From positions 1 to 29,090 of IMG/VR virus record IMGVR_UViG_3300034073_001856: a stretch of 29,090 nucleotides of DNA, one strand, 5' to 3'. The first letter of the stretch is position 1. Every line of letters starts with the position of its first letter. The stretch is from a virus. Below, piece by piece: positions 3,414 through 28,737 of the stretch. Both the position numbers and the translations under genes were made by a program. The notes under the pieces were generated by a model that made no database searches, was not told where the DNA came from, and worked only from the letters and a program-made list of their open reading frames with translations.

Positions 3414-4636
3414 ATGTTTCATAATCATCACTCACATTCATTTTATTCGCTCCTAGATGGATACTCTTCACCAGAAGAACTGGTGAAAAGGGCGGCGGAG
3501 GTTGGAATGTCTGCCCTTAGCATTACAGACCATGGCACTCTGAGCAGCCATAGAGATCTAGTAAAAGCATCGGGAGAGCATGGGGTAAAGCCTATCCTTG
3601 GTCTAGAGGCATACTTTACTACAGATAGATTAGACAAACGTTCTCGCAAAGAGAGAACTCCAGATGATCAGGTGTATAACCATCTTATTATTCTAGCCAA
3701 GAATGATAGAGGGTTAAACAATCTTAACAGATTGTCGGAGAACGCCTGGGAGGAAGGATTCTTTATTAAGCCCCGCACAGATTTCGATATGCTAGAGAAG
3801 TTTGGTAGAGATCTTATCATTTTGTCTGGATGTATGAATGGAATGATAGCGAAGGCTATTGAGAATGATAATGAAGCGGCGGCCATTCAGTATGCTAAGT
3901 GGCATAAAGATGTATTTGGTGATGACTTTTACATGGAGATTCAGCCACACAATCCGGCCAGCCTTAATCACTCCCTCCTTAATCTTGCCGATAAATTGAG
4001 CATTAAGCCAGTCGTTACATTGGATTGTCACTTTGCTTCTCCAGAAGATAGAATTGCAGAAGAAATCATGCTTATCCTGGGCACGCATCCCAAAGCCCTC
4101 AAGGAGGCGGACTTCAATAAGAGTCGAAAGATTAAGAATTTAATAGAACGTTTAGACTATATTTACGGTGATCGTCAAATGTCATTCAAGGATTTAGACA
4201 TTTGGCTTATGGGGTATCAAGATGTAAAGACTAGAATGCTGGCTCAGGGAATTGAGCGGGAAGATATCTATGAAAATAGCATTGAGATTAGTGAGAAGAT
4301 CGGACAATACGACATTAAATTTGGGGTTGACCTACTTCCCGTAAGCCATAAAGATCCTGACGCAGAACTTAAGCAACGTGTGATGGACGGTCTGAGGCAG
4401 AGAGAACTTATTGAGCCAGAGTATCTTGAGCGGGCCAAAGAAGAGTTAGAAATTATTAGTAATAAAAGTTTTTCCTCCTACTTCTTAGTGGTATTTAATA
4501 TGATTCATTGGGCCAAGAGTCAGGGCATCATGGTGGGTCCTGGAAGAGGATCTGCCGCAGGAAGTCTCGTATGCTATGCGCTTGGCATTACTGAGATTGA
4601 CCCGATAAAACATAACCTTATTTTTTCTAGATTTAT
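3414..4636 (+). CDS. dnaE: DNA polymerase III alpha subunit, 5' segment
   Basis: N-terminal part of a family C polymerase. It starts after a GGAG ribosome-binding site. The PHP domain is visible from residue 3, with H6 and H8 and TDHG (38-41). The palm begins near residue 370 with PGRGSAAGS (376-384), the conserved Gly-Ser motif. The frame stays intact through the SRFID segment (405-409) and then meets a TGA at 4680-4682 after about 13 unrelated residues. I end the segment at 4636. Joined to 5661-7695 it gives one frame of 1085 aa, close to the usual size, with the correct six residues between Phe-Ile-Asp and Ala-Asp-Ile-Asp. As a separate 422-aa polypeptide it would lack the catalytic Asp pair. 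Confidence 0.88.
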
Positions 4637-4679
4637 TGACTCTGGGTATGTTGAGTACAACTGTCATTTTCAAAAACTA

Positions 4680-4688
4680 TGATATAAT
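4680..4688 (+). promoter_or_regulatory. extended -10 promoter for homing endonuclease
   Basis: TGATATAAT is a perfect extended -10 (TGn plus TATAAT at 4683-4688). Its TGA is also the stop codon ending the upstream polymerase frame. The endonuclease ATG follows the box by 6 nt without a Shine-Dalgarno, a leaderless arrangement. CTGTCA (4661-4666) lies 16 bp upstream as a weak -35. Confidence 0.55.
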
Positions 4689-4694
4689 GTAGAC

Positions 4695-5465
4695 ATGGAT
4701 TTAGAAGAAGCGGTTAAATTATATTCAAGTGGTTTATCAGGGCCAGAACTTTCTCGAAAATACGGTGTTAATATAGATAAATTATATAAAGAACTAAAGG
4801 TTCGTGGGCTAACTAGATCCCATCGTGAAAAATCTCTAAAATATAGTTGTAACGAAAAATATTTTAACCAAATAGATAACCCTACAAAAGCATATTGGTT
4901 GGGATATATGTGTGCAGATGGATATCTTACAAGAAGTCGGTATGGGTATTTGTCGGGAGTTACATCAAAGGACGGAGATCATCTAGAAATTTTTAAAAAA
5001 GATATAGAGGCAACTTATCCAATAAAAAAATATAAGACAGAAACTACTTATGGCGAAACAGAATATTATAGATTACTCATAACTTCAAAAGACCTGTTTG
5101 ATGGATTAAATAATAATGGTTGCATAGAAAATAAAAGTAAAACTTTGTTGCCTCCAAAAATAGACAAAAGCCTTGAACGTCATTGGATCAGAGGGTATTA
5201 TGATGGTGATGGCTCAATTAGAAAAAGTAAGTTATCTAAAAGCGGATTTGGTCTATCGGTTCTTGGAACTAAAGATGTTATTTCTTGGATAAAAGAAAGG
5301 GTCGGCGGATCTCAATGGTACGATTCTATAAAAGATATATGGTATCTAGATACAACACTAACTTTAGAGGTATTGGACTTTTTATATGATAACTCAGACA
5401 GATATCTTGAAAGGAAATTTGATCGAGCGGTTCTCGCAAGAAACAAACTTCTTGGAACTTCTTAA
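4695..5465 (+). CDS. LAGLIDADG homing endonuclease with HTH N-terminus
   Basis: A 256-aa DNA endonuclease expected to cut polymerase alleles lacking the insertion and so spread it. Residues 4-40 form a predicted helix-turn-helix (SGPELSRKYGVN at its centre). Two LAGLIDADG helices follow: LGYMCADGY (69-77) and IRGYYDGDG (165-173), with D75 and D170/D172 as the likely metal-binding acids. Two motifs in one chain indicate a monomeric enzyme. It lies in the same frame as the upstream polymerase segment, separated only by the TGA at 4680. It is more AT-rich than the flanking polymerase, consistent with separate origin. It has its own extended -10 promoter and no Shine-Dalgarno, so it is probably expressed independently. 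Confidence 0.88.
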   Translation: MDLEEAVKLYSSGLSGPELSRKYGVNIDKLYKELKVRGLTRSHREKSLKYSCNEKYFNQIDNPTKAYWLGYMCADGYLTRSRYGYLSGVTSKDGDHLEIFKKDIEATYPIKKYKTETTYGETEYYRLLITSKDLFDGLNNNGCIENKSKTLLPPKIDKSLERHWIRGYYDGDGSIRKSKLSKSGFGLSVLGTKDVISWIKERVGGSQWYDSIKDIWYLDTTLTLEVLDFLYDNSDRYLERKFDRAVLARNKLLGTS

Positions 5466-5660
5466 TCATTTTAACAATTCAGCAAGAAAATACAATAAAG
5501 ATTGGGCTGCTGACGAACTATATGTTATTGGTAGGTTGGGCCTATCAGAAAAATTCTTGTCTATGATTGGTGAAAAATACTCAAACAAGAATAACTCAAC
5601 TGTCGCCTATGTCCTTTGTATAACAGATGATGAGCCAAAGGATTATCCAAGTATTGTATG

Positions 5661-7695
5661 TGACCGTGGAAGAATGGACGCGGCTGACATTGATACTGAC
5701 TATGAAGATCGCCGCCGTGGAGAGGTAAAGGACTACCTCATTGAGGAATATAAGCATGTTGCCTCTATCGCAACATTTAATACTTTCAGGGACAAGGGGG
5801 TCGTGAGGGACGTTGCAAGAGCCTTCAACATTCCGCTGTCGGAAGTAAACAAAGCATTGAAAGGTATTGAAACATGGGAAGAATTTATCCGCACTCCAGG
5901 CACCAAAGACTTCAGGGACAGATACCCAGAGGTAGTAGAGTACGCCGACAGGCTGCGTGGTCGAATTCGTGGTACTGGTTTGCACGCTGCTGGAATCGTT
6001 ACATCTAAAACAGACATATCTTCCTACGCGCCGATTGAAACGAGAAAAGATTCTCACAGCGACAATAGGATTCCTGTGGTTGCGGTGGATATGGATCAAG
6101 CGGCTGAGATTGGCCTGATTAAGATTGATGCCCTTGGCCTCAAAACTCTTACCGTTGTTAAAGATACGATAAACAGTATCAAAGAGCGTAAGGGTGTAGA
6201 CATTGACTTAAAGAAAATTCCTATGGATGACCCAGAGGTTTATGCCGACATAAGTGCTGGATTTACCAAGGGTGTGTTTCAGGCAGAAGCGACTCCATAT
6301 ACTAATCTTCTTATTAAAATGGGGGTAAGTAATCTTAATGAACTGGCCGCCTCAAATGCTCTGGTCCGCCCTGGTGCCATGAATACCATCGGTGCTGACT
6401 ACATTAAGAGAAAGAAGGGGCGGCAAGCAGTATCCTACATCCACCCCATTCTTAAAGAATTTACAGAAGATACTTATGGGTGTATTCTTTACCAAGAGCA
6501 AGTTATGCAGGCGTGCGTTTATCTGGGCGGCATGACAATGACGGAAGCCGACAAGGTAAGAAAGATTATCGGAAAGAAGAAGGATGCAAAAGAATTCGAC
6601 CAGTTCAAGGATAAATTTATTTCTGGCGCTTCACAGCACATTTCTAAGGAAGCCGCAGAAAAACTCTGGCTTACATTTGAGGCCCATGCTGGATACTCCT
6701 TTAATAAGAGTCACGCTGTTGCCTATTCTACGCTATCTTATTGGACGGCGTGGTTAAAGAGATACTACCCAACAGAGTTTATGTTCTCTCTATTAAAGAA
6801 TGAATTAGATAAAGATAAGAGAACAGACTACCTCATTGAGGCCAAGAGAATGAACATCAAGATTCGCTTGCCACACATCAATGAATCTGGTGAGGACTTT
6901 ACTCTAGAAGGGGATGCTATCAGATTTGGTTTAGGAAATATCAAGTATCTCTCTGCTGGAATTTCTAAGAAGATTATTGCTAAGAGGCCGTTTAACTCAT
7001 ATCAAGAGTTCATAGAGTTTACGACAAAGAAGGGCTCTGGGGTAAATAGTCGTGCGGTAGAGGCGTTAAATAGAATTGGTGCGGCGGCATTTGAGGATAA
7101 TCCCAGATCTGGAAATGAGCGAGAATATCTTTATGAATATCTTAATGTTCCAGAGTTTGTTACAAATATCCCTAGGTGGGTGGAATCATATTTCCGTCCA
7201 TTAGAAGATTATGATGAAAGCGGAGCCTTCATCGTAATGGCTATGGTGAAGTCAATCAAGCGCGGTGACGGCTGGAGCAGGATTGAAATTGTCGATAAGA
7301 CTGGCAGCGTGGGGGTATTTCACAACGCAGATACAGTAATTGAGCCAGGTAAGATGTACATATTCCTTATTTCAGACAATAGGATTCTTTCCTATCTACC
7401 GCCAGATTCTCTTGACTCATCTAATAGTTCTTTTGTACAATTTCTAAAGGCAAAGACTATGGTCCTTGGCCCCGACGAATATTTTGTCGTGGATATGGAG
7501 GCCAGGAAAACAAAGAAGGGTGACAAAATGGCTAATGCTGTTCTCGCCAATGAAGATAAAGATCTCATGTCCATAGTAATTTTCCCCACAATGTACGCGG
7601 AGGCAATTGCAAGAATGAAGCCAGGAACTAATTGCCGACCGATATTTTCAGAAACTTCATCTGGCGCTACTACATTAAAAGGTTTTATTAGATGA
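5661..7695 (+). CDS. dnaE: DNA polymerase III alpha subunit, 3' segment
   Basis: C-terminal two thirds of the family C polymerase. It opens with the catalytic motif ADIDTDYEDRR just after the insertion, then a V-V-R-D-V-A-R palm segment. Further on come fingers motifs including LYQEQVMQ and AHAGYSFNKSHAVAYS, the conserved nucleotide-binding stretch. The C-terminal part (from about 7230) is beta-rich with an OB-like segment. The reading frame stays open upstream to 5386, through the last 275 nt of the insertion, but the region 5386-5465 is shared with the endonuclease frame. If translated alone, the first in-frame ATG near the conserved part is at 5674, with a weak GGAAG two bases upstream. 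No exonuclease or beta-binding motif was specifically identified. Confidence 0.88.
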
Positions 7696-12585: not shown

Positions 12586-13093
12586 TGTAGTTCTTGCGGA
12601 GCGGTGGGAAAAAATTAATAAAGTGGTGGATGTATTCCTTAAAGGGACTACAAATCCCACCGCCATTGCACGGGCAACTGGATTTAAACGGGCGGAGGTC
12701 CAAGAGTATCTTGATGAATGGCGGTCCGTTATTCAAAGTGATAGACAGATTCAAATGCGTGCGAGGGAGGCTTTGTCTGGTGCCGACCGACACTACTCCA
12801 TGCTGATTGAGGAGGGCTGGGATGTTATTAATCAGACTGGCACAGTTGGAGATCTATCTGGCAAGGCTCGTACAATTAAAATTGTTGCGGAGATTCAACA
12901 AAAGCAAATAGATATGTTGCAAAAGGCTGGCCTTATTGAGGATAGCGAAATAGCCCAGCAGATTATTGAGACTGAGCGCAAACAAGAAATCTTAGTGAAA
13001 ATCCTTAAAGAGGTCGTTGCCGATTGCTCTCATTGTAAGCGAGAGGTTTTCAGGAGGTTAGAAGAAGTTACTGGCAAGGCTGAAGGATTCTAA
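12575..13093 (+). CDS. terS: terminase small subunit (predicted)
   Basis: A 172-aa helical protein directly before the large terminase. Residues 10-50 contain a predicted HTH (NPTAIARATGFKRAEVQEYL) that would recognise the packaging site. Residues 90-140 form a long helical segment with many Gln and Lys, a likely oligomerisation coiled coil. A CSHC pair is near residue 151. Position, size and HTH-then-coil order fit small terminases; sequence alone would not prove it. The stop overlaps the large-subunit start as TAATG. Confidence 0.72.
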   Translation: MSTDVVLAERWEKINKVVDVFLKGTTNPTAIARATGFKRAEVQEYLDEWRSVIQSDRQIQMRAREALSGADRHYSMLIEEGWDVINQTGTVGDLSGKARTIKIVAEIQQKQIDMLQKAGLIEDSEIAQQIIETERKQEILVKILKEVVADCSHCKREVFRRLEEVTGKAEGF

Positions 13094-14872: not shown

Positions 14873-15253
14873 ATGGATATGAATGAAGAACTTATACAAA
14901 TAATGCTTGAGCGTGGGTACATTGAGGTGGTAGGATATAATCCTGTTGGAGATCCAGTATATAAGGTAACCCCATTGTTCTATGAAGAGCAGGAGGAACT
15001 TGTAGAATGGATGCGACAGATGGATTCAGATATACTGAATTCTTTGTGGTTTAAAGGATTCATAGATTTAAAGATGGATGAAGATGGAAATGCCTTCATC
15101 TACCTTACTGATAAATCGGAGGGCTGGGTTCAATCGGATGAACTTACTGAAGATGAAAAATCTATGATGTATCTCATTTATAGCACAGGAGCCTACAATG
15201 GAGGTAAATGGAATGGTGGATATCCCGACCCAGGATACAAGAAACGTAATTGA
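14873..15253 (+). CDS. hypothetical acidic protein
   Basis: A 126-aa strongly acidic protein, not recognised. It contains a helical acidic stretch (residues 38-55, EEQEELVEWM) and a C-terminal Gly/Asn/Tyr-rich tail. It starts one base after the terminase stop. The methyltransferase start lies within its 3' end. The tail is partly encoded in the overlap. Function unknown. Confidence 0.65.
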   Translation: MDMNEELIQIMLERGYIEVVGYNPVGDPVYKVTPLFYEEQEELVEWMRQMDSDILNSLWFKGFIDLKMDEDGNAFIYLTDKSEGWVQSDELTEDEKSMMYLIYSTGAYNGGKWNGGYPDPGYKKRN

Positions 15254-15758
15254 TTATTATAAGGAATGGGAGAATGATCAAATCAAGGCGGACCTAGATA
15301 CCCGCCGCCTCCCATTTGCAGTTGGTTTTGAAAACGTTTCTGGTGACTTTAATAAAGCATCTGGCATTCGTAATAGTAATGCTTTCATGGCTAAAGAGTC
15401 TTGGATTATTGGAAATAAGAAGTGGGATCGACGCGGAGCGGTAGGAACTCATAACTATATTCATCTTAAGTACGCCCCATCACTAGATCATATTTATCTT
15501 AATGAGCCTCACATCAGAGACATGCGTTGGGTGGCGGTGGACAATGTTCCTGGTGCTACCCCCATCACTGAATATGAGTGGAATCCAAATACTTTCATGA
15601 TCTTTGGAGAAGAGGCAAGAGGTGTAAGCCCCATGGGTCTTGGAATGGCAGATGACGTTGTAATGATTCCACAACTTGGTAGTGTTAGAAGCCTTAATGT
15701 TAGTGTCGCAAGCGGTATCGTAATGTATGACTATGCGACAAAACTTGGAATGCTATAA
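15213..15758 (+). CDS. SpoU/TrmH-family RNA 2'-O-methyltransferase
   Basis: A 181-aa SPOUT-fold enzyme that would transfer a methyl group from SAM to an RNA ribose. Motif 1 with the catalytic-type Arg is at 47-58 (N47...R53). Motif 2 is FGEEARGVS (131-139) and motif 3 is the IPQ...RSLNVSVASG segment (152-168), which forms the SAM-binding knot. It is close to TrmH in size but lacks a separate RNA-binding extension, as in TrmL-like enzymes. I chose the ATG at 15213 because GGAGG (15200-15204) lies 8 nt upstream; 15198 would begin at that site. Proximity to a tRNA gene suggests a tRNA target, which is inference. RNA methyltransferases of this family are rare in phages. Confidence 0.83.
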   Translation: MVDIPTQDTRNVIDYYKEWENDQIKADLDTRRLPFAVGFENVSGDFNKASGIRNSNAFMAKESWIIGNKKWDRRGAVGTHNYIHLKYAPSLDHIYLNEPHIRDMRWVAVDNVPGATPITEYEWNPNTFMIFGEEARGVSPMGLGMADDVVMIPQLGSVRSLNVSVASGIVMYDYATKLGML

Positions 15759-15764: not shown

Positions 15765-15899
15765 ATGGAAGTATGCTCATTCTGTGGGAAAAGCGCCAAA
15801 TGGTCTGGGGAAAGAAAGTCTACTAGATTATATGTATGCGATATACACTTTAAGGCATATTACATAAATTTTTCAGATTGGAAGAGATTAGATGGCTGA
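15765..15899 (+). CDS. 44-aa zinc-ribbon protein
   Basis: A short ORF with CSFC (C4, C7) and CDIH (C25, H28), a treble-clef or ribbon-like zinc site, followed by an aromatic C-terminal tail. It lies between the methyltransferase and the next gene, overlapping the latter by 8 nt. The start follows an extended -10 box by 5 nt with no Shine-Dalgarno. The regular Cys/His spacing supports it being a real gene. Function unknown. Confidence 0.6.
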   Translation: MEVCSFCGKSAKWSGERKSTRLYVCDIHFKAYYINFSDWKRLDG

Positions 15900-16266
15900 A
15901 TCATATGTGCCAACAGACTCTATGGCTTCTAATGCCCGCCGTGGCCTTGCCATGCGCGACGAATTTAATCGTGGAGGAACGGCAGTAGGAATTGCACGCG
16001 CTAGAGACATTGCAAACAAAAAGAATTTAAGTGAGTCTACTGTATTAAGAATGCATTCATTCTTTAGCCGCCACGCCGTTGACAAAAAGGGCAAGGGCTG
16101 GAAACAAGGTGAAGAAGGATACCCATCCAATGGTCTTATTGCATGGCTTTTATGGGGCGGAGATTCAGGAAGATCCTGGGCGGAATCAAAAAGAAATGCA
16201 ATTATGAGAAGAAGAGAGCAATCCAATAAAATGTGGAAAGGCTCCGCTTTCGATATAACAGAATAG
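15892..16266 (+). CDS. conserved phage-type protein (RGGT...WALWGG type)
   Basis: A 124-aa basic protein. Residues 15-110 follow a pattern seen in many phage proteins, including domains fused to head-maturation or portal proteins: ARRGL, RGGT-x-VGIARARDI, a helix with STVLRMHSFF, then GYPSNGLIAWLLWGGD and SWAESK. No catalytic motif has been assigned that I know of. Here it stands alone. The stop abuts the candidate structured RNA. A role in virion assembly is possible but unproven. Confidence 0.65.
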   Translation: MAESYVPTDSMASNARRGLAMRDEFNRGGTAVGIARARDIANKKNLSESTVLRMHSFFSRHAVDKKGKGWKQGEEGYPSNGLIAWLLWGGDSGRSWAESKRNAIMRRREQSNKMWKGSAFDITE

Positions 16267-16371
16267 ACCCCGATGTGCCAGCAATGCCGAGTTACGCGGT
16301 TGATTCCAGTATGAAGTTAGTCAAACGTGCAGAACTTAGGATGGTTATGTTACTCGCTGGCACATCGGTCT
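16265..16371 (+). ncRNA. candidate structured RNA, long closing stem
   Basis: CCGATGTGCCAGC (16270-16282) and its exact complement GCTGGCACATCGG (16356-16368) form a 13-bp stem, extended by AGA/TCT after a 2-nt bulge. It encloses 73 nt. Inside, TTGATT...AGTCAA can pair (one U-G), and AAGTT...AACTT can form an alternative or pseudoknotted helix. It starts at the stop of the previous gene and ends 1 nt before tRNA-Asn. The interior does not fold as a standard tRNA and shows no T-loop. It could be a small RNA, a tRNA-processing element or an attachment-site-like inverted repeat. Confidence 0.5.
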
Positions 16372-16372
16372 A

Positions 16373-16445
16373 TGGCGCGTAGTTCAACTGGCAGAACATT
16401 CGGCTGTTAACCGAAGGGTTGGAGGATCGTACCCTCCCGCGCCAG
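16373..16445 (+). tRNA. tRNA-Asn (GTT)
   Basis: A full cloverleaf of 73 nt. Acceptor stem TGGCGCG/CGCGCCA (7 bp), TA at 8-9, D-stem GTTC/GAAC, anticodon stem TTCGG/CCGAA with loop CTGTTAA (anticodon GTT at 16406-16408), 5-nt variable loop and T-stem GGAGG/CCTCC. U1-A72 and discriminator G73 match bacterial tRNA-Asn. The T-loop reads ATCGTAC: positions 54 and 58 are A and T, the reverse of the usual T54-A58. CCA is not encoded (GC follows). It would read AAC and AAT codons, frequent in this AT-rich sequence. Confidence 0.93.
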
Positions 16446-16446
16446 C

Positions 16447-22159: not shown

Positions 22160-22329
22160 TGGGTTTAGTCTGGATAGAATCTGAAAGATGCTGGGGCAAG
22201 GTATTAAATTATTACGCAGACTTTTGTCTTGTAAAATATCATAAAGATGGTATAGACTTTGAAGAGATTATAGAAAATGAAGATCTCACAGATGTAAGAG
22301 AAATGGGCATTGATTATGAGTCTGAATGA
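22156..22329 (+). CDS. hypothetical 57-aa acidic protein
   Basis: A small acidic ORF between two larger genes. It shares ATGA with the preceding stop, and its 3' end overlaps the IMPDH-like start. Aromatic residues in the first half and many acidic residues in the second. Function unknown. Fit into the packed gene order supports it being real. Confidence 0.55.
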   Translation: MMGLVWIESERCWGKVLNYYADFCLVKYHKDGIDFEEIIENEDLTDVREMGIDYESE

Positions 22330-23323
22330 AGCGATTTGCTTTGATGATGTTCTTCTAGTTCCACAGCATAGTGACATAGATAGCAGAAAAGATATTAATT
22401 TAACTATGACCGCAGGTAATCTAAAATTAGATCTACCTGTTATTGCCGCCCCAATGGATACAGTATGTGGTGATGAGATGGCTATCACTATGTCAGAATA
22501 CGGTGGCCTCGGTGTAATCCATAGACACCAGCCACTCAATGATCAGATAGAAATGATTTCCAGAGTATCTTATTTCCTTCACCCAGCATTTGGTTCTATT
22601 GGTATTACTTCAGACTACATGCTTGACGCCAAGAAACTTATTTCTGCTGGCGCTGTGGGGCTGTGTATTGATGTTGCCAATGGCCACAACCATCGCGCTA
22701 TTGAGGCCGTTCGTAATCTTAAATCTGAGTACGATATTCATGTGATGGTTGGCAACGTGTCCACGCCCAGAGGATTCTTTGATTTAGAAAACGCTGGTGC
22801 AGATAGTGTAAGAGTTGGTATTGGTGGTGGATCAATGTGTACCACTAGAATTGTAACTGGACACGGGCTGCCAACACTACAATCTATTATTGATATCAAT
22901 GAGCAGCGCAAAAGCAAGAAGTGTGCTGTTATTGCCGATGGTGGAATTAGAAATAGCGGCGATATGGTAAAGGCTTTTGCTGCAGGAGCAGATTTTGTTA
23001 TGGTGGGGTCGATGCTTGCAGGGACAAAAGAGTCTCCTGGAGAAATTGTCAATGGCAGGAAGATGTTCCGTGGCATGGCGTCTAAGTCTGCTCAAGAGGA
23101 TACTCGCGGATATATATCAGTAATTGAGGGGGCTGAGACAACAATTCCCTATAAAGGGTCTGTTCGCACTATCCTTAAAGATATTATCGGTGGATTAAGG
23201 AGTGGATGCTCCTACTCAGGTGTAAGAAATCTTGGAGATCTTAATCTTTTTTCTGAGATGAGGAGAGTATCTGTTAATAGCGTTCTAGAGAATAGGCCGC
23301 ACGGGGCTCATGAAACTGTTTAA
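22316..23323 (+). CDS. IMP dehydrogenase / GMP reductase-like enzyme
   Basis: A 335-aa TIM-barrel enzyme of the IMPDH/GMPR family. It opens with FDDVLLVP, the family signature, has the catalytic loop GIGGGSMCTTR with C175, and the IADGGIR and VGSMLAGT phosphate-binding segments. There are no CBS domains, so the length matches GMP reductase or a minimal IMPDH. IMPDH makes XMP from IMP for guanine nucleotides; GMPR runs GMP to IMP. The loop has G-G-G-S in place of the usual G-P-G-S. Placement just before GDP-mannose 4,6-dehydratase suggests it feeds GTP and GDP-sugar synthesis, which is inference. ATG 22316 is preferred to the TTG at 22310; the ribosome-binding site is weak. Confidence 0.85.
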   Translation: MSLNEAICFDDVLLVPQHSDIDSRKDINLTMTAGNLKLDLPVIAAPMDTVCGDEMAITMSEYGGLGVIHRHQPLNDQIEMISRVSYFLHPAFGSIGITSDYMLDAKKLISAGAVGLCIDVANGHNHRAIEAVRNLKSEYDIHVMVGNVSTPRGFFDLENAGADSVRVGIGGGSMCTTRIVTGHGLPTLQSIIDINEQRKSKKCAVIADGGIRNSGDMVKAFAAGADFVMVGSMLAGTKESPGEIVNGRKMFRGMASKSAQEDTRGYISVIEGAETTIPYKGSVRTILKDIIGGLRSGCSYSGVRNLGDLNLFSEMRRVSVNSVLENRPHGAHETV

Positions 23324-23498
23324 GCGTAAAAGTATTGAAGAAATAAAGCAGCCTCAAGAATACTACTGCTCAAATCTGCAATGCTTTAATGAAATAGCAA
23401 AATTCAGCCCACTTTACGACCTTCTTACAGAAGAAGCGCAACATAAAGAGGCGTATAATTATTGTTTTACCTGTATAGTTGAAGGAATGACGGAATGA
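23310..23498 (+). CDS. small four-cysteine protein
   Basis: A 62-aa protein with Cys at 20, 25, 52 and 55 that could form a small zinc site (C-x4-C...C-x2-C). It begins with a basic segment (KLFKRK). It overlaps the IMPDH-like gene by 14 nt and the dehydratase gene by 4 nt. Not recognised. Confidence 0.6.
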
Positions 23499-24502
23499 AA
23501 AAGGCTTTAATTACTGGAATTACCGGACAAGATGGCTCATATTTGGCAGAACTATTACTAGAAAAAGGCTATGATGTATACGGAATTAAAAGGCGGTCCT
23601 CATCAATTAATACAGAAAGAATTGACCACTTATTCGACCACCCAAATCTTAAACTTATTTATGGAGATCTCACAGATTCTTCATCAGTTATTAAAATTAT
23701 TAATGATACCAGGCCAGATGAAATATATAATTTAGGGGCACAGAGTCACGTTCAAGTCTCTTTTGAAACTCCTGAATATACTGCCCAATCTGACGCGCTT
23801 GGACCACTAAGAATACTTGAGGCTATTAGAATTGCAGGTTTAGAAAATGAAACAAGATTTTATCAGGCGGCTACATCAGAAATGTACGGACTTATTCAAG
23901 AAGTTCCACAGTCTGAAACGACCCCGTTCTATCCTAGATCTCCTTATGGAGTAGCAAAACTATATGGTTACTGGATTACAAAAAACTATCGTGAGTCATA
24001 CGATATGTTTACCTGTAACGGAATTTTGTTTAATCACGAATCCCCCCGCCGTGGAGAAACTTTTGTCACAAGAAAGATTTCTCGTGGACTGGCTGCTATT
24101 AAGCATGGAGAATTAGATACTCTACAACTAGGAAATCTTAATGCTTTAAGAGACTGGGGGCACGCCAAAGATTTTGTTAAAGCGATGTGGCTGATGTTGA
24201 ATGCTGATAAGCCTGACGACTATGTTATTGCAACTGGTGAAGAGCATAGTGTTAAAGAATTTATTGAGGCTTCGGCCCCCTTCTTTGATATGGATATTGA
24301 GTGGATTGGGGAGGGCCTAGATGAAAAAGGTGTTGACATAAAAACTGGCAATACTGTGATATCTGTTAATGAAAGATATTTTAGGCCAGCAGAAGTAGAT
24401 AGATTAATTGGTGATTCTTCTAAGGCTAGGAAAGAACTTGGATGGAAGCAAGATTATTCCTTCTATGATTTAGTCAGGGAGATGTGTCTTGCAGAACTAT
24501 GA
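23495..24502 (+). CDS. gmd: GDP-mannose 4,6-dehydratase
   Basis: A 335-aa SDR enzyme that converts GDP-D-mannose to GDP-4-keto-6-deoxy-D-mannose. The NADP site is GITGQDGSY (8-16), preceded by a typical short N-terminal strand. The catalytic set is T127-S-E129-MYG and Y151-xxx-K155 in [12 protein letters not shown]. The segment [15 protein letters not shown], seen in this enzyme family for GDP binding, is intact. Length is close to the usual 345-370 aa. It is the first committed step for fucose, colitose, perosamine and rhamnose. The GDP-mannose supply (ManB/ManC) is not in this window. ATGA overlap with the preceding gene. Confidence 0.93.
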
Positions 24503-25271
24503 TATTACTATTAAGGCGCACCCGAAGGATTACTATAAATTACCGCATGTTATTTCTAGCCTGAAATATTTAAAACCCAGATTTGAAAATATTTATATTG
24601 TTTCTCCAGATGGTTATAGACCACAGTCTATATTTCAAGATCAGATAATTACTGTAAGAGATGACGATGTTTATCCAGTTGTGGATAAAAGTAAATTTAC
24701 ATATAGGTACAACTGGTGTTGGGCTAATATGGTATCTTTAACACAAGATTTTACTAAAAACGATTTGTATTTAGATGTTCAAGCAGACAATTTTTTTCTA
24801 AATGAAATAAATTTATTTTCAGAGGACGGAAGGCCAAGACTTTTTAAGACTAGTGTTAATTCAAACAATAATACTGTATGGGGGCCATATTTTAATTTTA
24901 GTAGGTCGATGTTTAATATAGATAAAATAACTTTAGGGTCTTCATACATTATAGAGTTTATCATGTACGATAAAAATAAATTAAAAAGTTTGTATGCTCC
25001 TTATGATAAAGGCGTTATGATAGAAAAATCTTATAGTCAGGTTAATGAAAATTCATATCCTGCAGATCAAGAAATATATGGTAACTTAATAGAAGAAAGA
25101 TTCTCAGATTCCTATGAGATTGTCCCAGGAGTAGAAACATATTTGGGTGGGGATAAAATCCAGGACAATGATATAGATAGAGTTCTTAACTATGTATCTT
25201 TAATAAAATCACAGCACCCTACAGCAATAGCCTGTAGCCATCACACATATTGGATGCCAGAATGGACATAG
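24489..25271 (+). CDS. DUF6492-like predicted glycosyltransferase
   Basis: A 260-aa protein starting at TTG (24489) with AGGGAG 6 nt upstream. The N-terminus ([20 protein letters not shown]) looks like the first strand and helix of a GT-A domain. [10 protein letters not shown] segment (95-103) could be the metal- and sugar-binding D-x-D-type turn. It resembles DUF6492-type proteins by this pattern only. It overlaps gmd by 14 nt and the epimerase gene by 10 nt, so it belongs to the cassette. Base composition is more AT-rich than gmd. Confidence 0.55.
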
Positions 25272-26203
25272 ACAGCAAAATATATGTCGCAGGACACAGA
25301 GGCATGGTTGGATCTGCCATTGTAAGAAAATTAAAATCTCTTGGATATAACAAGGTAGTTGTTGATTCCAGAGAAGGAGTGGATCTAAGAAATCAGCAAT
25401 GGACAAGAAACTTTATTGAACTTCACAAACCAGACTATGTTTTTTTGGCGGCGGCCAAAGTAGGTGGAATAAATTACAATAAAACATATCCAGCAGATTT
25501 TATTTATGACAACCTTTCTATACAAAATAATGTTATTCATTCGTCATATGAATTAGGCGTGAAGAAACTTTTATTTCTTGGATCTTCCTGCATTTATCCA
25601 AAAGTCTGCCCGCAGCCAATCAAAGAGGGGGCCCTACTGACCTCACCCCTGGAACCTACCAATGAAGCCTATGCCATTGCTAAAATAGCAGGCCTTAAGA
25701 TGTGTAGAATGTATACTGACCAGTACGGATTCCAAACTGTTTCTCCAATGCCAGCCAATCTTTATGGGCCCAATGATAATTTTAATTCTGAGCAATCCCA
25801 TGTTATCCCCGCGATGATTAAAAAATTATTAACTGCCGTGGACCAGGAAGAAGAGGAGGTTACATTTTTTGGTGATGGAAGTCCTATCAGAGACTTTATG
25901 CATGTTGATGATCTTGCAGATGCGTGCATATTTTTAATGAATGAATACGATGATCCTTCACATATTAATGTCGGCTCAGGTATAGACGTTTCTATTAAAC
26001 AACTTGCCGAAATAATATCATCAATTGTGCACTACAATGGAAAAATTATTTGGGACACATCCAAGCCAAATGGATCTCCAAGAAGAACCCTTGACACATC
26101 TAAGATGAATGCGATAGGATGGTATCCAAAGACCTCTCTAATTCAGGGTCTTGAGGACACCATTGACTGGTATAAAAGAACAGGTGGACAGCGTGAATTA
26201 TAA
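25262..26203 (+). CDS. fcl: GDP-L-fucose synthase-type epimerase/reductase (Fcl/ColC)
   Basis: A 313-aa SDR enzyme. The NADPH site is AGHRGMVGSA (10-19), with the catalytic S109, Y137 and K141 in GSSCIYP and YAIAK. C110 and H180 match the 3,5-epimerase acid/base pair C109 and H179 of E. coli GDP-fucose synthase. GDP-L-fucose synthase and the colitose enzyme ColC are homologous, and this sequence alone does not separate them. A ColD-like gene next door makes either plausible. The ATG at 25262 lies in the previous gene. The length matches Fcl (321 aa). Confidence 0.87.
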   Translation: MDIDSKIYVAGHRGMVGSAIVRKLKSLGYNKVVVDSREGVDLRNQQWTRNFIELHKPDYVFLAAAKVGGINYNKTYPADFIYDNLSIQNNVIHSSYELGVKKLLFLGSSCIYPKVCPQPIKEGALLTSPLEPTNEAYAIAKIAGLKMCRMYTDQYGFQTVSPMPANLYGPNDNFNSEQSHVIPAMIKKLLTAVDQEEEEVTFFGDGSPIRDFMHVDDLADACIFLMNEYDDPSHINVGSGIDVSIKQLAEIISSIVHYNGKIIWDTSKPNGSPRRTLDTSKMNAIGWYPKTSLIQGLEDTIDWYKRTGGQREL

Positions 26204-27359
26204 ATGGCCCTTGATGAAAGAAACTATTACCTACTCAGATAGACTTAAGATGATTAAGTTTATCGCCACCACCAAAAAATTTACCAATGGCGAGATGGTA
26301 AAAAGATTTGAGTCTGAGTGGAATGAATGGCTTGGATCTCAGCACTCACTATTCGTTTCATCTGGTTCTACTGCAAACTTTTTATTGCTGGCGGCAGTAA
26401 AAGAATATTTAGGTCTAAAGGACGGAGATAAAGTTCTTGTCCCTGCCTGTACATGGATGACAAATGTTGCCCCAGTAATTCAACTAGGCCTTAGCCCAGT
26501 ATTTTGTGATATCAATTTAGATAATCTGTCCTTTGATAAAAAGCATATGGAGTATCTATCAAAACAAAATCCAGATATTAAATTAGTATTCAGCACACAT
26601 TTATTAGGATTTCCTTCGTGGCCTACAGACACTATCAAAGAATATTTTCCTAATGCAGTTGTCATAGACGACGTTTGCGAATCTCATGGTGTATCTGTCG
26701 ATGGTAAAAAGGTGGGGGAAAATAGTGTAGGGGCAACATTTAGTTTTTATTTCGGCCACCACATGACAACTATTGAGGGCGGAATGGTTTCTACCAGGAA
26801 TGAAGAACTGTACGACTTGATGAAGATGAAAAGAAGTCACGGAATGTCTAGGGAATCTATTAATCCTGAGTTTTATAACAATAAATATCCATCAATGGAC
26901 CCATCGTTCCTATTTGTTACCGATGGATATAATTTTAGAAATCATGAAATTCCTGCAGTACTAGGATCATCTCAACTAAAAAGACTTGATAAAATGATTC
27001 GTAGGAGGCAGGACAATTATAAAAAGTTTCTTGATATCCTCTCTCCACATTTAGATAAATTCTACATGCCGTATACTGGAACTGGAAACAGCAACTTTGC
27101 ATTCCCTCTAATATCTAAAGATACAGATGTTTTTCAACTTCTTAAAGAAAGGTTGGATCGGAGTGGCGTAGAGAGGCGCCCTGTAGTTAGTGGCAATCTA
27201 CTATCTCATCCATTCTTAAATTCCTATAGACTTGATTATCCCTTTAATACCTACCCAAATGTATCAATACTACAAAATCGCGGGCTGTATGTTGGAAATA
27301 ATCATTTCGTGGGCGATAAGGAAATATCTATGCTTAAGGATGTGTTGGACTACCTATGA
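26193..27359 (+). CDS. ColD-like PLP enzyme, His at the PLP-lysine site
   Basis: A 388-aa DegT/DnrJ/EryC1-fold enzyme. In sugar aminotransferases of this fold the PLP lysine follows SFF-P-x; here the segment reads SFYFGHHMTTIEGG (184-197), with H189 where the Lys would be. This His replacement is the mark of ColD (GDP-4-keto-6-deoxy-D-mannose 3-dehydratase, H188) and the RfbH type. D160 in IDDVCESHG would bind the PLP nitrogen. ColD removes the 3-hydroxyl on the way to GDP-L-colitose. I chose GTG 26193 (GGTGGA 5 nt upstream, 388 aa, the length of E. coli ColD); the longer ATG at 26151 overlaps the epimerase more. Function by motif only. Confidence 0.78.
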   Translation: MNYKWPLMKETITYSDRLKMIKFIATTKKFTNGEMVKRFESEWNEWLGSQHSLFVSSGSTANFLLLAAVKEYLGLKDGDKVLVPACTWMTNVAPVIQLGLSPVFCDINLDNLSFDKKHMEYLSKQNPDIKLVFSTHLLGFPSWPTDTIKEYFPNAVVIDDVCESHGVSVDGKKVGENSVGATFSFYFGHHMTTIEGGMVSTRNEELYDLMKMKRSHGMSRESINPEFYNNKYPSMDPSFLFVTDGYNFRNHEIPAVLGSSQLKRLDKMIRRRQDNYKKFLDILSPHLDKFYMPYTGTGNSNFAFPLISKDTDVFQLLKERLDRSGVERRPVVSGNLLSHPFLNSYRLDYPFNTYPNVSILQNRGLYVGNNHFVGDKEISMLKDVLDYL

Positions 27360-28105
27360 GTAAAGCGTTAGAAGACAACGATTTTTTGGATAATCTAAAA
27401 GACAAGTGGAATTTTTATATAGATGGAGAAATACTTTCTTGTAACACTCCAGATGAAAAAAATATTGGCTATCTAATAGAGTCTAAGACAATTATTCCAT
27501 CTGTTTATGTAGATTTTGTCATTCATTGGGAAGAATTAATAGATAATTTTAAATATATATTTACACCAGATAGAAGTCTAGTAGAATATCATGAAAAAAT
27601 TAAATGGGCCCCAGCGTCTTTTGTTTGGATTAAAGAGCCAAGGCTGTACGAAAAAACTAAACTAGTGTCAATGATTTCTTCTAATAAAAACTTCTGTGAA
27701 GAGCACGCAAAAAGGCGGGAACTCATGGAAGTAATGTTAAGAACTGGCCTGGTTGATATGTATGGCAGATCAATTAATCCTATAGATCATAAAGAGCAGG
27801 GCCTGTGCGACTACATGTTTTCAATAGCAGTAGAAAATGCTAAGTACTCTGGAAACTTTACTGAAAAGATAATGGACTGTTTTGCTACTGGTACCATCCC
27901 AATTTATTCTGGTGACCCAGACATAGACAAGGTGTTTAATCCCAAAGGCATAATTACACTTACAGATAATTTTCACCCATCACTTCTTAATGAAGAAGTT
28001 TATTATGAAAGAATGGATGCTGTACAAGAGAATCTAGAAATAGTAAAGCAGTTTTGTAGCATACAAGATTGGATTAATGATAAATATTTAAAGGAATTAG
28101 AATGA
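27356..28105 (+). CDS. GT10-like fucosyltransferase
   Basis: A 249-aa protein with a GT10 (alpha-1,3/4-fucosyltransferase) C-terminal domain: a KTKLVSMISSNK strand with RRELM helix, then E160-N161 in FSIAVENAKYSG, TEKIMD (169-174) and the FATGTIPIYSG turn. The usual E-N...T-E-K GDP-sugar motif is present. It may transfer fucose or colitose from GDP. The N-terminal acceptor half is about half the usual length. No membrane segment is visible. ATGA overlap with the ColD-like gene and with the next gene. Confidence 0.75.
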   Translation: MSKALEDNDFLDNLKDKWNFYIDGEILSCNTPDEKNIGYLIESKTIIPSVYVDFVIHWEELIDNFKYIFTPDRSLVEYHEKIKWAPASFVWIKEPRLYEKTKLVSMISSNKNFCEEHAKRRELMEVMLRTGLVDMYGRSINPIDHKEQGLCDYMFSIAVENAKYSGNFTEKIMDCFATGTIPIYSGDPDIDKVFNPKGIITLTDNFHPSLLNEEVYYERMDAVQENLEIVKQFCSIQDWINDKYLKELE

Positions 28106-28737
28106 ATCCTTTAAAGTGCGTAGTAGATTCATATAAAAAATACTTTGGTGATACGGCTAATACTATTATAGAGATAGGTTCTAGGGATGCTAAAGATGCA
28201 TACTACTTATCTCAAATGCTTAACTCTCAAAGGGTTTATACCTTTGAGGCTAATCCGTTCTGCCATAAAGTCATAGAATCTAACTACCCAGAATTTCATA
28301 ACATTCTTGGGGCGGTATCAAATTTTACTGGGCGGGCCGATTTTAATGCGGTGGACTCATTAAATTGGGACGCTGTAGGAACCTCCTCATTGAGAGATAG
28401 AAATGATTCTTGGTACAAGGGGCAATCTAATAAAATTAAAGTTAATGTCGATACAATGCACAATTACATTATTAATAATAACATTGTACCGCCGCTGGAT
28501 GTGGTAAAGATAGATGTTGAAGGATGCTCATATGAGGTTCTAGAAGGATTTAAAGTTTTCCTTAAAGGTATTAAGGTTCTACATGTAGAGAATGAAACCT
28601 TTGCTTTCTGGGAAAACCAGAAACTTGCAGGAGAAGTTGGAGAATTTTTAACTTCACATGGATTTATTAAAGATTATGAAGAAAAGTTTGGTGAAAATAG
28701 TGTGGATGAGGTTTGGATAAATGGCGATCTCATTTAA
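28102..28737 (+). CDS. FkbM-family SAM methyltransferase
   Basis: A 211-aa class I methyltransferase. SAM motif I is IIEIGSRDA (22-30), the acidic strand VYTFEANP (45-52), and KIDVEGCSYEVLEGF (136-150) is the FkbM signature. Such enzymes often add O-methyl groups to sugars in glycan clusters, so it may cap the cassette product. Overlaps the GT11 gene by 17 nt in another frame. No signal sequence. Confidence 0.85.
   Translation: MNPLKCVVDSYKKYFGDTANTIIEIGSRDAKDAYYLSQMLNSQRVYTFEANPFCHKVIESNYPEFHNILGAVSNFTGRADFNAVDSLNWDAVGTSSLRDRNDSWYKGQSNKIKVNVDTMHNYIINNNIVPPLDVVKIDVEGCSYEVLEGFKVFLKGIKVLHVENETFAFWENQKLAGEVGEFLTSHGFIKDYEEKFGENSVDEVWINGDLI

Follow-up and report, generated by a model that had tools for sequence, protein, structure and literature searches.

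A putative new family of structured RNA at the head of tRNA gene arrays in uncultured phages

What occupies the short gap between a small open reading frame (ORF) and the tRNA-Asn gene of the IMG/VR virus record IMGVR_UViG_3300034073_001856, and does it act as RNA? This record, 29,090 bases long and referred to here in its entirety as the window, carries in that gap a perfect 13-bp inverted repeat, P1, with strands CCGATGTGCCAGC (positions 16270–16282) and GCTGGCACATCGG (16356–16368). A preliminary description, made from the sequence alone, had proposed a structured RNA closed by this stem, and an inverted-repeat search recovered both the stem and the 73 nt it encloses. The stem indeed adjoins the tRNA gene, at a distance of 4 nt for the perfect helix and not 1 nt as first reported; the smaller figure is reached by counting in the additional pairs AUAGA/UCUAU on the far side of a CC bulge. 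The element is also not a tRNA, as had been stated: ARAGORN and Rfam call only the gene at 16373–16446, and neither ARAGORN nor the Rfam tRNA model (RF00005) finds a cloverleaf in the element. No ORF of at least 60 aa fills the gap. Moreover, the homologues described below measure 85, 87, 88, 93, 105, 107, 108 and 109 nt, differences that are not multiples of three, so the gap appears to be non-coding and, judged by these lengths, holds no conserved reading frame. Together, the sequence data support a structured RNA that abuts a tRNA, lies in a non-coding gap and is not itself a tRNA.

Taken alone, the stem is merely mildly unusual. The window holds no 13-bp inverted repeat other than P1 with a loop of 20–150 nt, and 5% of shuffled windows carry such a repeat. 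The window RNA folds better than its shuffles with z = -3.1. Since a stem of this kind has a chance of about 5% in 29 kb and the fold score is of this size, relatives were needed to decide, and the comparative evidence settled the matter, confirming the structured RNA as real. Scans for the stem, the inner motifs and the neighbouring proteins detected the element in some 44 further viral contigs (individual loci are denoted below by L and a number), yielding 18 distinct intact RNA sequences.

Covariation was counted in alignment A2 of these 18 sequences. Every cell of P1 is a standard pair (100%, with no broken pair), and double changes occur at 5 of the 13 pairs, one position being seen as G-C, C-G and A-U. 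Double-change cells number 22, versus 5.4 in shuffles, and partners slid out of register pair in only 21–45% of cells. The compensatory changes whose absence was to have spoken against the structure are therefore present. On the + strand, the wobbles in P1 and in the inner helices read as G·U; they would be mismatches in DNA or in RNA of the other strand, and thus point to an RNA made from the + strand. This pattern of substitution shows selection acting on the element at the RNA level. In addition, the RNA outlasts its flanks where relatives diverge, being 90–92% identical between the window and L165, L176, L183 and L187, while the 350 nt upstream are 58–60% identical. The whole element, delimited by alignments A1/A2 and by single-copy matches of covariance model R1 in 13 related virus records, spans 16263–16373 on the + strand, taking in a conserved 5' AUAGACC, whose UAG doubles as the upstream ORF's stop codon, and a short 3' tail up to the tRNA.

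The inner architecture is shown by comparison of the relatives to be a three-way junction on the + strand, closed by P1 and formed with an interrupted P2/P3 arm and a small P4 hairpin. The 5' strand of P2a, CCGAGUU (16287–16293), is paired in the minimum-energy fold with AACUUAGG (16333–16340), which has one bulged A. In a test of own against swapped partners, own partners gave -5.66 kcal/mol versus -4.49 kcal/mol for partners swapped between relatives (0 of 5000); the 5' segment after P1 thus has the CUUAGGAU-containing strand as its partner, in a co-varying helix. The preliminary description had read part of this region as a possible pseudoknot, AAGTT/AACTT, which can form in only 2 of the 18 distinct sequences (the window and L167); the AACTT strand pairs instead with CCGAGTT in the co-varying helix. 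All members can alternatively form a hairpin around UUAGGAU; it was not significant in the own-versus-swapped test (p = 0.17), and P2a is the better supported of the two by this comparison.

Further along the arm, P2b is predicted in minimum-energy folds of long-form relatives, where CGCG (16295–16298) pairs with CGUG (16326–16329); it occurs in the long form only and is without independent covariation. The arm ends in a terminal hairpin, UGAUU/AGUCA with a conserved CAGUAUG loop (16301–16323; predicted pairs 16301–16305/16319–16323), found in folds of relatives and replaced by GUAC/GUGC in short forms. Short forms (85–93 nt) and long forms (105–109 nt) therefore differ at the tip of the P2/P3 arm and have P1, the P2 arm and P4 (GGU...ACC) in common. 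In the window, P4, a helix of the RNAalifold consensus, is GGU(UAUGUU)ACU (16343–16354; predicted pairs 16343–16345/16352–16354); it has 100% of cells paired and together with the GGAU preceding it forms the most conserved segment. The fold beat shuffles in the four standard-order relatives tested, with z from -3.8 to -6.1.

A further view of this core is offered by a circularly permuted form. In L381 and L383, which are otherwise close to the L165 group, the halves of the element are exchanged at the same locus, with CUUAGGAUGGUUAAUAGUUAC first and then GAGUCCGAAGUUGAUUUCAGUAUGAGUUUAGUCAACGUGCAG, and the permuted RNA is closed by an 11-bp helix, GGGUCACAGCA/UGCUGUGGCCC, directly before tRNA-Asn. 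Chance is an unlikely cause because stretches of about 20 nt and about 35 nt have been exchanged at one locus; the two loci look alike here, and the permutation is counted as one event. Folded alone, with part of the closing helix left out, the L381 stretch was no better than shuffles, and its structure is therefore assigned by homology and from the observed 11-bp helix. The permutation identifies the folded core as the conserved unit, and comparison of the two arrangements shows that it is this core, not the strand order, that selection has kept, persisting with either helix closed. An HNH endonuclease gene, named by sequence inspection, lies directly before the permuted RNA (L381:3901–4600). 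In L381 the HNH gene is separated from the small ORF by a stretch with a near-perfect 17-bp hairpin, UAGGUGACUAAUAACAU...AUGUUAUAGUUACCUA.

What such an RNA might do is suggested by its position. Every checked member has the upstream order terminase, 126-aa ORF, SpoU-type gene, 124-aa ORF and then the RNA. The 124-aa ORF (15892–16266, + strand) matches PHROG 2859 (function unknown), and almost all relatives have its stop codon where the element starts. The called first tRNA, which is Asn, Gln or Pro, starts 4–6 nt after P1 in 36 of 42 loci; in the window it is tRNA-Asn (GTT; 16373–16446, + strand; ARAGORN, and 60.4 bits with the Rfam tRNA model). At one further locus the contig end cuts the tRNA, whose beginning matches the same tRNA-Gln sequence. 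The favoured reading, at about an even chance, takes the element for a conserved domain of non-coding RNA that heads the phage tRNA transcript and is processed with the tRNA into a small stable RNA. Most loci leave just 3–5 nt between P1 and the tRNA, with no recognisable promoter, from which co-transcription with the upstream gene and the tRNA is inferred; no convincing promoter of the element's own was seen upstream in most members either. A cut by RNase P at the tRNA 5' end would then release P1 with a tail of 3–5 nt, giving a stable RNA of about 105 nt in the window and 85–110 nt in relatives. The folded core might afterwards act in cis, keeping the upstream mRNA apart from the tRNA precursor, or bind a partner in trans.

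The leader reading draws on the covariation of P1, the + strand wobbles, the co-evolution of P2a and the folds that exceed shuffles, as well as on the fixed placement between small ORF and first tRNA and on the conservation of the RNA relative to its upstream flank. It also draws on the identity of the 105-nt RNA in the window, before tRNA-Asn, and in L162, before tRNA-Gln. The element is lacking in L398–L400, which have the SpoU-type gene and no tRNA directly after the small ORF (L399 and L400 carry a relative of the 124-aa ORF), and in L099, whose tRNAs are preceded by a promoter-like TTGACA site of their own.

Several points weigh against it. Leader processing has been inferred from sequence comparison. 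The RNA is kept in L194, L216 and L226 (3 of the 42 loci), one subgroup in which the tRNA lies 52 nt away behind a perfect sigma-70-like promoter, TTGACA-N17-TATAAT (L194:2450–2520), and in L222 and L234 (2 of 42), where a small gene comes first and the tRNA is 287 nt off. The element is thus not strictly tied to tRNA processing. Furthermore, few close relatives lack a tRNA at this place, and the association with tRNAs accordingly relies on a small number of independent losses. Two translational ideas were set aside. Read-through of the UAG shortly before P1 does not fit L167, where a TAA precedes the element, nor the in-frame extensions, which are short and unrelated; a mini-ORF, AUG-GUG-UAG, in P4 is absent from the window.

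Judged by sequence, the ribozyme, trans-acting and antitermination readings are inseparable from the favoured one. A less likely possibility is that of a trans-acting small RNA for which the tRNA transcript serves as vehicle and which binds a protein, such as the SpoU-type methyltransferase, or a target RNA. A closing helix, as P1 provides, is typical of stable RNAs, and retention of the element where the tRNA is further off or has its own promoter-like site would suit such a role. The SpoU/TrmH-type RNA 2'-O-methyltransferase gene (15198–15758, + strand; Pfam PF00588, 3.5e-20, and synteny) is kept in every checked RNA-bearing relative and is absent from the RNA-less L099, whereas L398–L400 have the gene without the RNA. 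Covariance-model searches never found a second copy elsewhere in the same record, which also speaks against this role. As a separate observation, the phage tRNA or the element RNA would be candidate substrates of the enzyme.

Rather doubtful is a self-cleaving ribozyme of a new kind, whose cut near one of its ends would part the tRNA from the message upstream, in the way proposed for theta ribozymes, which lie on the opposite side of tRNAs. A compact core with many invariant nucleotides and a multi-stem junction would fit it, as would the existence of a naturally permuted version, since self-cleaving RNAs, the hammerhead among them, are documented in naturally permuted forms (PMC10085705); self-cleaving RNAs beside phage tRNAs are likewise known (PMC10879173). 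No Rfam ribozyme matched, however, with Pistol searched separately and absent from the locus, and beside the tRNA there is no invariant candidate for a cleavage site, the 3–5 nt tail varying in sequence. The more specific proposal of an undescribed catalytic (e.g. self-cleaving) three-way-junction RNA that has two natural circular permutations and matures the 5' side of phage tRNA arrays is distinctly doubtful.

Quite unlikely is a cis-acting antitermination or anti-Rho leader that would carry polymerase from translated genes into untranslated tRNA genes. The element sits exactly where translation ends and the untranslated tRNA array begins, and the HK022 put RNA is an antitermination leader to which it can be likened, but the element is also kept before the strong promoter-like site of the L194 group and before only one or two tRNAs, as in the window. 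A DNA-level role as attachment site, packaging or cruciform signal, to which the palindromic stem and the nearby terminase gene and tRNA might point, is very improbable, because one-strand wobbles, a co-varying inner arm and a permuted version indicate RNA folding and not a DNA palindrome. The attachment-like site of the preliminary description gains nothing from the comparison, since the adjacent tRNA changes type while the RNA stays identical and the constraint is on + strand pairing, including G·U; tRNA co-processing and a small-RNA role, which it had also raised, are plausible on these sequences, and its interpretation is overall partly supported.

The carriers are probably a group of uncultured phages with actinobacterial hosts, because the window terminase shares about 60% identity with its counterpart in Streptomyces phage Gilson (Stanwilliamsviridae) and the window's SpoU-type methyltransferase has 34–36% matches to Rhodococcus phages. 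Model R1 found exactly one copy per record in 13 of 13 larger records searched, and no match in Gilson; the element was not found in more distant terminase relatives, and isolated phages gave nothing beyond tRNA or chance matches. A strict core pattern matched nothing in bacterial and archaeal genomes, and a looser one gave eight matches there, about chance by a rough estimate, none of which fits the covariance model; one further pattern scan was judged too loose. In Gilson (L356:12158–13700), six copies of GGGTCGGAT/CT stand among tRNA genes and tRNA-like fragments, most followed by ATATCC about 50–130 nt on, which looks like another repeated structured element in the tRNA region of a related phage. 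Downstream of a large tRNA cluster, L096 carries a phage-encoded tmRNA (12777–13001) whose predicted tag is GNSQNAFALAA.

Elsewhere in the window, a phage DnaE-type DNA polymerase (3414–7695) lies in two ORFs split by a LAGLIDADG-like homing endonuclease gene (4695–5465). An intron is likely, rather than an intein, because the first half ends in a stop; no Rfam intron matched the split gene at gathering score. Genes for IMP dehydrogenase, nucleotide-sugar epimerases, an aminotransferase and a methyltransferase-like protein (22310–28737) form a phage-carried sugar or nucleotide modification cluster.

There are few structured RNAs beside phage tRNAs, most with no known function, and the element adds one, offering strong covariation, a fixed place heading tRNA arrays and a natural permutation by which core and connectivity can be told apart. 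With its 85 nt, the short form of L204 could serve directly in cleavage, RNase P and binding assays, and the family is a candidate addition to Rfam. In a search of Rfam 15 at gathering score or E up to 10, no family matched the element, with just the tRNA and weak, chance-level matches returned; on this comparison it is a new RNA family. A bacterial Y RNA, YrlA (RF02553), is likewise a tRNA-related small RNA with a long closing stem, and was rejected at 14.7 bits against a cut-off of 69 (E 2.3), the weak match running into the real tRNA. A T-box was rejected as well, because no specifier follows the tRNA type: the window and L162 share one RNA before different tRNAs. Hammerhead and hairpin cores had no matching motifs by eye and no Rfam match. 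Pistol (RF02679) is similar by eye in the motif order of the permuted L381 (UUAGG loop, AAUAGUU, a CC-containing partner, GUUGAU...GUCAAC, GUGCA), which made this natural permutation the best-fitting test case. The Rfam model, at E up to 10, failed on the L381 region and on the L381, L383, window, L196, L204 and L194 records; its sole match in the L232 record scored 8.8 bits (family cut-off 34.5 bits) and lay some 28 kb away from the element. The element may nevertheless be a changed, unrecognised Pistol relative.

Closer in setting are RNAs made or encoded with phage tRNAs. The T4 tRNA cluster yields the stable RNAs species 1 and 2, whose function is unknown; these are likewise small and made with phage tRNAs, although they belong to an unrelated phage group and are likened here by description. 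GOLLD RNA is also a phage-linked non-coding RNA of tRNA clusters, accompanied in mycobacteria by an HNH gene in the same cluster (PMC6582537), yet it exceeds 400 nt, compared with about 85–110 nt for the element, which has no Rfam match. Theta ribozymes, which are HDV-like, are similarly small structured RNAs adjoining phage tRNAs on the same strand, with variable tRNA type (PMC10879173). Their cleavage site lies within 5 nt of the tRNA 3' end (PMC10879173), whereas the element lies on the 5' side of the first tRNA, is closed by a 13-bp helix and does not match any HDV model in Rfam. Theta ribozymes are the nearest functional analogue of this RNA, situated at the other end of the tRNAs.
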